Positions 18,309 to 44,913 of a DNA stretch of 64,000 nt are shown here, in pieces. The DNA comes from Halonotius pteroides (GTDB lineage: Archaea; Halobacteriota; Halobacteria; Halobacteriales; Haloferacaceae). The notes under the pieces are model-generated. The model searched no databases and had not been told where the DNA came from. It saw only the letters and a program-made list of their open reading frames with translations. Location: assembly GCF_003605635.1 (NCBI RefSeq), contig NZ_QMDW01000002.1:62001-126000 (forward strand), written 5' to 3'. A program made the position numbers and the translations under genes. How positions within the stretch are numbered: the first letter of the stretch is position 1; every line of letters starts with the position of its first letter.

Positions 18309-18437
18309 ATGTTCAGCACGCTTACCCACCGTCGGAAACGGATAGAGACATTCGTCGTGTACATCACGATGGCGTTCATCGCAGCCATCATTGCAGGCTA
18401 CCTGTCACAACAACTGTTCCAGCTGTTGGGACTCTGA
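18309..18437 (+). CDS. 42-residue membrane microprotein
   Basis: A short frame, MFSTLTHRRKRIETFVVYIT onward, with a basic N-terminus and one hydrophobic helix of about 22 residues (FVVYITMAFIAAIIAGYL), ending QQLFQLLGL. The positive-inside N-terminus and single helix fit a real single-pass membrane microprotein. It is preceded by a 7-bp hairpin ending 9 nt before the ATG and by TTTAAAT 59 nt upstream. Function unknown. Confidence 0.55.
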   Translation: MFSTLTHRRKRIETFVVYITMAFIAAIIAGYLSQQLFQLLGL

Positions 18438-18501: not shown

Positions 18502-18765
18502 GCTGTCGCTCGGGCACAAACTGCGAGGGAAGGGATTCGAACCACGGTCATTTCGATCTTGGTAATCGCTCAATTCCCTATTTCGAACCCTTCCAGAACG
18601 ATTTCAGCCCTCGCTGTCGCTCGGGCACGCAATGCGAGGGAAGGGATTCGAACCACAGTCGTTTCGCTCCTGATAGTCGCTCCACTCCCTGTTTCGAACC
18701 CTTCCAGAACGATTTCAGCCCTCGTTGTCGCTCGGGCACGCAATGCGAGGGAAGGGATTCGAACC
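18502..18765. repeat. 111-nt tandem repeat built on the tRNA-Leu 3' end
   Basis: Copy 1 is 18502-18612, copy 2 is 18613-18723, and a partial third copy 18724-18765 runs into the intact tRNA-Leu. Each contains the last 21 nt of the tRNA gene (acceptor strand plus T-arm half), starting at 18523, 18634 and 18745, exactly 111 nt apart. In copies 1 and 2 the tRNA identity ends after those 21 nt. Each copy also contains a TTCGAACCCTTCC stretch that looks like the same T-arm in the opposite direction. Copy 1 differs from copy 2 at scattered positions, so the duplication is not recent. The layout is that of integrase att sites left after element loss. Confidence 0.85.
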
Positions 18766-18828
18766 CTCGGACCCCTACGGGAGCGGGTCTTAAGCCCGCC
18801 GCTTTTGGCCTAGCTCAGCCACCCTCGC
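18745..18828 (-). tRNA. tRNA-Leu (anticodon UAA)
   Basis: An 84-nt cloverleaf on the minus strand. The acceptor GCGAGGG pairs with CCCTCGC, the D-arm has GGCTGAGC-type sequence, the anticodon stem-loop GGGCTTAAGACCC gives anticodon UAA, a long variable arm (about 12 nt, CTCCCGTAGGGGT region) marks it as class II leucine tRNA, and the T-arm has GGTTCGAATCC. CCA is not encoded. No intron is seen. Its 3' end is the template of the repeats on its downstream side. Confidence 0.95.
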
Positions 18829-43806: not shown

Positions 43807-44913
43807 TCAACGGATCTTTCGGACATTGCTCAGATCGTAGCCCCGGTCGTGGAGTTCGCTCTCGAAGGCGGCGATCTCATCCCGATCCAACCGACCGAGC
43901 GCACCGGGAAGTTCACGGATCGACAACAGACGGGCGCGCTGTGAGCCGCCGGTCTCCCACCCAAACGACAGCGTCCCGGTTGTCGCCGCCGAAAGGCTAC
44001 CAAGCTGGGCGTCGGTCACCGCCTCCGCGTCGGCGACGACAAGCACCAGCCCACCGCGGGCGGCGACCATCCGGGTCAGCCCGCGAAGCAGGCGAACGAC
44101 AGCCGCCCACGACACCACATCGTCCGAGAGGTCACCGAGGTCGGTGACCGCGTCGATCACAACGAGAGTCCCGCCGACAGCGTCGTCCAGCGACGCCCGC
44201 AACATCGACAGGATCGCTGGGCTGTCAGCCGCCCCCGAGTCGTCGCTCCCGGCACCCGTTGTCGACGATGTGGCCGTGGCTGCAACGTCGGCAACGGTGG
44301 TACCGTCGGCGTTGGTATCGTCGGCAGCGGTAGTGTCGTCAACGGCGGTGGCGTTGTCGACAGCGGTGGTGCTGTCACCGGCGTCGTCGCCGGGGATCGT
44401 CGCAGTGGTCTCACCGTAGTCGAATGGGTCGGCTGTTTCGTCGTTCTCGACAGCGTCATCGGCGATACCATCAGGGTCGGCGTCACCATCAGCGGGCGAC
44501 TCCGGCGGCAGCGACGGCGGCGCGTCGCTGTCCTGGTACCACGCTTCCGGCACGTCGGTCGCGTCGAAATACGCCGCCGAGAGGTCATGATAGGTGATCC
44601 CCGTGGCCGCCCGCTTAGCGATCTCGGTGGAGACCGTCTCGGTCAGTGCCGCCTCTAGCGAATCAGTCGTTGCCGCCACCGAAAGATAGTGGACACTTGC
44701 GGGGACGATCACCCCTTCGTGGTCGATCCCCCGATAGTGACGCTCGAAGGCCTCGTTGTCGGTCGTCGCTAAGGCGTTCATCGCCGCGCTGGTCTGGGCG
44801 AACTTCCGGCCGCCGGCACCGGGTTCGGTCGCCAACAACACGACGCTGCCCGTGGGGACGCCCCCGTCGAGCATCGAATCCAGCCGGGAGACGCCGAACG
44901 GGATATCGACCAT
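43807..44913 (-). CDS. RecA/KaiC-superfamily-like protein with degenerate Walker A
   Basis: A 368-residue protein. IPFGVSRLDSMLDGGVPTGSVVLLATEPGAGGRKFAQTSA is a KaiC-like opening, but the P-loop reads EPGAGGRKF instead of GxxGxGKT. Residues ~135-225 are a low-complexity Asp/Thr/Ala insert with repeated VDDTTA-like units. The C-terminal part has GGTLVVIDAVTDLGDL (Walker B-like) and RLLRGLTRMVAARGGLVLVVADAE. Similar proteins are annotated HTR-like in haloarchaea. ATP hydrolysis is doubtful; a scaffold or sensory role is possible. Confidence 0.75.
   Translation of the reverse strand: MVDIPFGVSRLDSMLDGGVPTGSVVLLATEPGAGGRKFAQTSAAMNALATTDNEAFERHYRGIDHEGVIVPASVHYLSVAATTDSLEAALTETVSTEIAKRAATGITYHDLSAAYFDATDVPEAWYQDSDAPPSLPPESPADGDADPDGIADDAVENDETADPFDYGETTATIPGDDAGDSTTAVDNATAVDDTTAADDTNADGTTVADVAATATSSTTGAGSDDSGAADSPAILSMLRASLDDAVGGTLVVIDAVTDLGDLSDDVVSWAAVVRLLRGLTRMVAARGGLVLVVADAEAVTDAQLGSLSAATTGTLSFGWETGGSQRARLLSIRELPGALGRLDRDEIAAFESELHDRGYDLSNVRKIR

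Follow-up and report, generated by a model that had tools for sequence, protein, structure and literature searches.

Why does the 3′ end of a tRNA-Leu gene recur in tandem just downstream of that gene in the haloarchaeon Halonotius pteroides? The question concerns a 64,000-nt stretch of its genome (assembly GCF_003605635.1, contig NZ_QMDW01000002.1, positions 62,001 to 126,000 of the forward strand; hereafter the window, numbered from its first base), for which an original prediction had proposed repeated integration and excision by an integrase, or tandem duplication of an att region. The tRNA-end copies are parts of short hairpin units without genes, a family widespread in haloarchaea that forms arrays behind many different tRNA genes, with each unit matched to its own tRNA. 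Between close relatives, units are gained, lost and reordered at the copied tRNA end, and they are probably tiny mobile cassettes.

Two hairpin units follow tRNA-Leu(TAA)

The sole tRNA gene of the window is tRNA-Leu(TAA), on the minus strand at 18744-18828 (ARAGORN and Rfam). The 21-mer GCGAGGGAAGGGATTCGAACC has three occurrences in the 64 kb, all on the plus strand, at 18523, 18634 and 18745, confirming that the last 20-21 nt of this tRNA are present as three exact copies with 111-nt spacing, the third being the 3′ end of the tRNA itself. Three exact occurrences of a 21-mer at even spacing are far beyond chance. Tandem Repeats Finder reported a repeat of period 111 at 18502-18765 (2.4 copies, 91% matches), and the segments 18502-18612 and 18613-18723 are identical at 99 of 111 positions. 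As had been proposed, the copies are pieces of the tRNA 3′ end that lie on the 3′ side of the gene within tandem units.

Read on the tRNA strand, the 111-nt repeat consists of a leader, an inverted arm GGAAGGG-TTCGAA (x′), a 40-nt core and the tRNA-end copy TTCGAATCCCTTCCCTCGCA (x). The T-arm-like sequence in the opposite direction, which had also been remarked on, is real and proved to be the key feature of the unit: GGAAGGGTTCGAA lies on the minus strand at 18693-18705 and again at 18582-18594, and pairs with the x copy that begins 40 nt downstream of it. In the window, two units of a haloarchaeal repeat family form an array 3′ of the tRNA, all on the minus strand. The last 20 nt of the gene (18744-18763) serve as the first x. 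Unit 1 starts directly 3′ of the tRNA with a leader that has relatives (18708-18743), followed by x′, an inverted copy of the T-loop and the 3′ strand of the T-stem that is shorter by one base than the perfect complement (18693-18705), a 40-nt core of type a (ACAGGGAGTGGAGCG...GACTGTGG; 18653-18692) and an exact copy of the last 20 nt of the tRNA as x (18633-18652). Unit 2 repeats this order with its leader at 18597-18632, x′ at 18582-18594, a 40-nt core at 18542-18581 and an exact 20-nt x at 18522-18541. The start of a third leader (18502-18521) follows, and the repeat stops there, which is the end of the array. Both units were matched by the covariance model R1 described below (unit 1 at G000:C39:80633-80702 and unit 2 at G000:C39:80522-80591, where G000 is the H. 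pteroides genome).

A haloarchaeal family of units behind tRNA genes

When the region was compared by BLAST with its own genome and four congeners, short matches were found not only at tRNA-Leu loci but also 3′ of tRNA-His, tRNA-Ser, tRNA-Pro, tRNA-Arg and tRNA-Asp, and each was followed by that tRNA's own 3′ end. Because sites 3′ of other tRNAs are matched as well, the repeats are not the scar of a single locus; a simple tandem duplication at one locus was likewise ruled out, as the same type of unit stands behind many other tRNAs. Among the 44 tRNAs predicted by ARAGORN in the H. pteroides genome, 19 are followed within 400 nt by a copy of their last 21 nt at 15/21 or better and 25 have no such copy. 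The inserts are about 60-160 nt long. In the 700 nt upstream of the tRNAs, the best match was a single one at 14/21.

A degenerate pattern that joins the end of the core to the start of x hit 39 loci in a species-level genome collection, in haloarchaea of many genera (two of the record titles read only 'uncultured archaeon'). ARAGORN placed a complete tRNA 82-399 nt upstream in 34 of the 39, and in most of them the inverted arm is found at 40 nt, or in some cases at 41 nt. Covariance model R1, built from 31 of the 39 sequences, matched 113 of 116 haloarchaeal genomes of the class, representing 44 of 45 genera, with 1-21 matches each. In a draw of 196 genomes from the phylum it matched 37 of the 40 belonging to the same family or order and none of the remaining 156, of which 139 are not listed individually. 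Of the three unmatched haloarchaeal genomes, one gave weak matches from an E-value of 0.0015 and two, G018 and G022, showed no units even under laxer filters; G018 is empty although its genus mates carry 21, 9 and 7.

In three complete genomes, 60 of 69 model matches lie within 600 nt 3′ of a tRNA on the same strand, where about 0.5% would be expected. Of the nine exceptions, four adjoin a tRNA or lie immediately 3′ of it but on the opposite strand, four are preceded by tRNAs that the Rfam scan missed, three of which are long enough for an intron, and the last, adjoining an SNJ2-like integrase, is a tRNA end that has been displaced. The tRNA model was the only one of the Rfam 15 covariance models to reach threshold at the units.

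The inverted arm follows the adjacent tRNA

We examined the anatomy of 183 x copies in 113 arrays behind tRNAs of 32 anticodons, at loci mostly picked for holding units. The order is leader, x′, a core of about 40 nt and x, and arrays contain 1-5 copies. The x element is a direct copy of tRNA positions 54-73, running from T54, where the T-loop begins, to the end of the tRNA; it equals the tRNA end at 20/20 in 105 of the 183 copies. The x′ element is an inverted copy of the T-loop and T-stem 3′ strand of the same tRNA, and an inverted arm at 8/10 or better was found for 156 of the 183 x copies, with a spacing of 40 in 71. Units of one tRNA have a common x and differ in leader and core.

To compare arms with cognate and foreign tRNAs, we scored the arm at a fixed 40-nt offset, with no searching, at 37 distinct pattern-chosen loci. 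The arm matched its own x at 8.65/10 and the x of other loci at 7.17/10 (permutation p 5e-5). An earlier rank test within the H. pteroides genome gave a cognate mean of 8.1 against 7.0 for other tRNAs, with several ties and losses, and is weak since T-loops are alike. We also considered that x′ might invert all 20 nt of the tRNA end and so mimic a minihelix; this held in single cases and was dropped as a general rule, since enrichment of the acceptor part was weak overall (4.05 vs 3.55 of 7).

Cores fall into type a (CAGGGAG...GACCGTGG), type b (CCCTGGAAG...CTTCCTCCGG) and others labelled c, d and e. Identical core types stand behind different, unrelated tRNAs with their arms re-matched, and one core type is near-identical across many genera. 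Like a miniature inverted-repeat transposable element (MITE) or a small mobile repeat (SMR), the units are short, non-coding, bounded by inverted repeats and present in many copies; because the arms follow the host tRNA, they do not have the fixed, target-independent ends of such elements. Behind tRNA-Ala and tRNA-Arg we observed a second kind of unit, at L026 and L031 in the H. pteroides genome and at L198 and L201 in G011, in which a 13-15 nt copy covers the acceptor side and a different sequence replaces the T-loop.

The unit folds into a covarying hairpin

The consensus of x′, core and x is one long imperfect hairpin in which steps of two base pairs alternate with G.A-rich internal loops (z score -6.35 as RNA and -5.11 as DNA). 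In the 31 sequences, 92.9% of paired cells hold standard pairs, and there are 39 double changes against 13.6 in shuffled sequences. The arms account for most double changes, which there mirror the tRNA; evidence that is independent comes from within the core. The core step that follows the first G.A loop was read in 88 type-a cores, defined by anchoring on the arms and drawn from 136 distinct cores of 24-60 nt. It occurs as GT/AC in 45, GC/GC in 17, AC/GT in 14 and GG/CC in 5, and is fully paired in 85 of 88; shuffling gave 53.5 on average and 62 at most. The 57 uncounted cores, some of them outside 24-60 nt, are mostly of other core types. With a narrower pattern, 23 of 31 cores were paired and the shuffled maximum was 22. 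The cores are kin by descent, so these counts are not of independent events. In the window itself, cores 1 and 2 differ at nine positions, four of which make up two compensatory double changes, from G-C to A-T and from C-G to T-A.

Units are gained, lost and reordered at x

Within a single genus, both the set of tRNAs with units and the number of units per tRNA differ. Across the genus, the number of units (at least 15/20) is 2, 2, 2, 1 and 1 behind tRNA-Leu(TAA), and 1, 2, 2 and 1 behind tRNA-Asp, where one common flank follows. The tRNA-Leu(TAG) gene is bare in G003 and is followed by one unit in G002; counted from the tRNA end or the last x, respectively, the flank common to both starts again after 7-8 nt. 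At tRNA-Ser(CGA), G001 has one extra unit adjoining the tRNA compared with G004, and the remainder aligns from its first base over 249 nt; the G004 locus, which has one unit with a truncated x, is used here as an array with one unit fewer, not as an empty site. The same two units follow tRNA-His in G000 and G002 in reversed order. Comparison of close relatives shows that x is where units have been added, removed and rearranged.

Exchange of parts is seen within arrays as well. The tRNA-Lys array of G042 comprises four identical 111-nt units and holds an x that matches tRNA-Arg(CCT) at 20/20. Units 1 and 2 behind tRNA-Leu(TAG) of the same genome are alike in leader and arm and have unrelated cores, and the five units behind tRNA-Ser(TGA) of G011 represent three core types. 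As in integrons, repeated hairpin sites alternate with exchangeable cassettes, here without genes.

Two further loci were recorded. A tRNA-Val fragment lies about 560-680 nt 3′ of tRNA-Val(CAC) in the H. pteroides genome (G000:C27; L042/L111) and contains an insert of about 70 nt, a double hairpin, exactly at the border of T-stem and T-loop, with no second x. In G042 (C1:2843194-2843368), two full tandem tRNA-Asp genes precede a three-unit array.

Search for a carrier or recombinase

The core pattern was not found in viral contigs, nor was the unit consensus in phage and plasmid records, and two integrase queries had no match in viral contigs. Thirteen integrase-flanking stretches from eight haloviruses contained no x′-core-x (best R1 E-value 0.45). 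The attP annotated in three halovirus records is 13-15 nt long and covers the acceptor side only; in Haloferax phage LSV-48N we saw, by eye, a longer match that includes the T-loop. The three complete genomes have 5-6 Phage_integrase matches each, none of them in an array, and 1 of the 69 unit matches adjoins an integrase. No integron integrase gene with an attI site was found; the arrays of these genomes and that of the window hold no Phage_integrase, and the remark that no integrase is near the repeats was borne out.

Like att scars, the copies are direct repeats of the tRNA end and are located 3′ of the gene. Remains of an integrase or element by the copies, and units at known attP sites, were not found. 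For 41 of the 44 tRNAs of the H. pteroides genome, the farthest copy of at least 16/20 in the 20 kb downstream lay at 657 nt, behind tRNA-Val(CAC), and all others were within 330 nt; three tRNAs were outside the coverage, and the tail of tRNA-Tyr was too short for scoring. Because no x copy lies beyond 657 nt downstream, the units are not shrunken ends of large elements, and the candidate that they mark the ends of larger integrated elements was ruled out by the lack of distal copies to 20 kb together with the hairpin-free integrase regions of viruses.

The idea of a single locus scarred by the repeated integration and excision of one element is not supported: units stand behind tRNAs of 32 anticodons at the examined loci and in nearly all scanned genomes of haloarchaea, and no virus, plasmid or adjacent integrase was tied to them. 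What survives of it is that the copies act as junctions of gain and loss. The original prediction had also named conservation in number across many genera, with no link to mobile elements, as evidence that would speak against it; the units do occur in many genera, but their copy number varies.

Two integrase loci were noted on the way. In G011 (L171, 7688-8960), the start of an SNJ2-like integrase gene adjoins a 13-nt end resembling that of tRNA-Arg, and a displaced hairpin unit comes after it; the array was apparently split from its tRNA by an integrated element. In G006 (L177, 182-4441), an element of about 4.2 kb with an integrase-like gene is bounded on one side by tRNA-Ala(GGC) and on the other by a 20/20 match to the end of that tRNA.

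Two other features of the window complete its description. An open reading frame for a 42-aa protein (MFSTLTHRRKRIETFVVYITMAFIAAIIAGYLSQQLFQLLGL; 18309-18437, plus strand) is convergent with the tRNA array, and a similar sequence follows arrays of two congeners (L008 and L009). An 18-nt tandem repeat of 3.2 copies lies at 44327-44383.

Discussion

We tentatively propose, at somewhat less than an even chance, that the units are gene-less cassettes that recombine at x through a folded single strand, in the manner of integrons and CTXphi, and are mobilised in trans. A single DNA strand of x′-core-x would fold, and its stem would recreate part of the double-stranded tRNA end. A tyrosine recombinase supplied in trans could then recombine the folded site with the identical sequence that ends the tRNA gene. 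With x carried by the cassette, each insertion would regenerate a complete tRNA and leave the displaced x behind, so that new cassettes would be expected next to the tRNA and older ones shifted outwards. Under this proposal x′ must match its own tRNA because the folded stem would recreate the end of that tRNA, and arrays would be spaced by x because every cassette brings one. That units come and go precisely at x, that cores are swapped between arms, that a foreign x occurs and that units are dispensable all argue for recombination of DNA and for mobility. The covarying hairpin speaks for a folded strand. If recombination took place at such a strand, the two lines of evidence would be united and there would be a reason for arms matched to the tRNA. 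The identity of the units is shown by the data; the recombinase, the folded intermediate and the polarity of insertion are what we infer. A more far-reaching version, in which haloarchaea have an integron-like system devoid of genes, the folded strand mimics the end of a tRNA gene, and one trans-acting recombinase addresses dozens of tRNA genes through re-matched arms, is possible but rather doubtful.

Several observations weigh against folded-strand cassettes. At the 8/10 level, 27 of the 183 x copies have no arm. The inverted copy is for the most part confined to the T region and its acceptor part is weakly enriched, so a full 20-bp site is not usually rebuilt. The integrase scan of complete genomes tied no recombinase to the units, and neither a free or excised form nor a vehicle was found in the viral, phage and plasmid records searched. 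Reversal of order and changes in copy number can also come about by duplication and deletion between 20-nt repeats, and swaps between arrays by homologous recombination after transfer. One of the five altered pairs between the window cores (24:36) is broken. G-U pairs are common at some positions (15 U-G beside 9 C-G at columns 11:50, and 7 G-U at 15:46), which fits RNA at least as well as DNA, and the compensatory changes could stem from quasi-palindrome template switching and not from selection.

The frequent G-U pairs bear directly on a function in RNA, in which the units would be transcribed behind the tRNA and x′-core-x would be a structured trailer involved in tRNA 3′ maturation or termination, or a small RNA; x′ could pair with the T-arm of the tRNA or with the x copy and so act as a folding switch. 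The covarying hairpin on the tRNA-sense strand, near-universal occurrence in haloarchaea and a nearly constant orientation just 3′ of tRNAs are all in keeping with such a role. We nevertheless regard it as unlikely, given that the tRNAs bearing units and the unit counts vary within one genus, with 1-5 copies from array to array, and that none were found in G018 and G022. A hairpin insert also sits inside a tRNA-Val fragment that cannot be a working tRNA, T content is alike after tRNAs with and without units, Rfam offers no family but tRNA, and there is no obvious need for x to copy the acceptor strand. A role as terminators or insulators, with hairpins that stop or punctuate transcription and tRNA likeness as a by-product, is very improbable: hairpins do lie directly 3′ of tRNA genes, but 25 of 44 tRNAs in the H. 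pteroides genome lack a copy at 15/21, T content is equal after the tRNA, an inner x and the last x, and both x and the tRNA-matched arm are left unexplained. The lack of a difference in T content led us to reject this candidate.

The units could instead be passive remains, that is, old integrase att copies multiplied by slippage and homologous recombination between 20-nt repeats and exchanged among strains by transfer, with the complementarity of x′ and x maintained by quasi-palindrome template switching. In its favour are the tandem identical 111-nt units of G042, the repeat-mediated deletions at short repeats reported for haloarchaea (PMC3119063), and the annotated attP sites, which show that SNJ2-type elements use tRNA 3′ ends. 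Against this stand the 13 integrase-side stretches of eight haloviruses without x′-core-x, the absence of x copies between 1 and 20 kb, which leaves no series from large element to unit, and the presence of one near-identical core type across many genera and of the same core types, with arms re-matched, behind unrelated tRNAs. We judge this explanation, too, to be unlikely.

If the units are mobile, they would be among the smallest known cassettes and would illustrate how base pairing can re-address the target of a site-specific recombination reaction. If they act as RNA, they form a clade-wide tRNA trailer structure. They may also account for many annotations of 'partial tRNA', and in haloarchaea a copy of a tRNA 3′ end close to the gene is not sufficient evidence of an integrated element.

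Comparison with known systems

Integron cassette arrays are alike in having folded-strand hairpin sites (attC) of similar size, variable order and number, and gain of cassettes beside a fixed anchor. The haloarchaeal units differ in that they come without an integrase gene, their cassettes have no genes, the anchor is a tRNA gene, the arms are specific to the tRNA, and the hosts are archaea. In CTXphi, the single strand folds and two inverted att-like sequences form a double-stranded recombination site. That phage integrates its single-stranded genome at dif (PMC3089051). It uses Xer recombinases and one site, whereas the units have many tRNA-specific sites and no phage or recombinase was tied to them.

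Published descriptions of the partial tRNAs themselves are brief. In Haloferax gibbonsii LR2-5, the partial tRNAs noted next to complete ones (PMC7921747) are probably the same objects as our units; they occupy one sentence of the main text, which describes no hairpin, core, arm or family. In PMC9897764, partial tRNAs are treated as products of element integration or CRISPR uptake. Apart from the sentence in PMC7921747, our search of an open-access library yielded no description of the family.

Among haloarchaeal elements, SMR-A of Haloquadratum (PMC3119063) is similar in being about 110 bp long and non-coding, with terminal inverted repeats, a strong target preference and an unknown mode of mobilisation. 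It inserts in palindromes within IS605-type elements, has its own ends and makes no target duplication; the units, in contrast, have ends that copy the target tRNA, and their target is the tRNA 3′ end. SNJ2-type elements and pleolipoviruses share that target and restore the tRNA (PMC8371274). They differ from the units in that they are kilobase-sized and carry an integrase, and their attP, in the three records with an annotation of it, covers 13-15 nt of the acceptor side with no x′-core-x.
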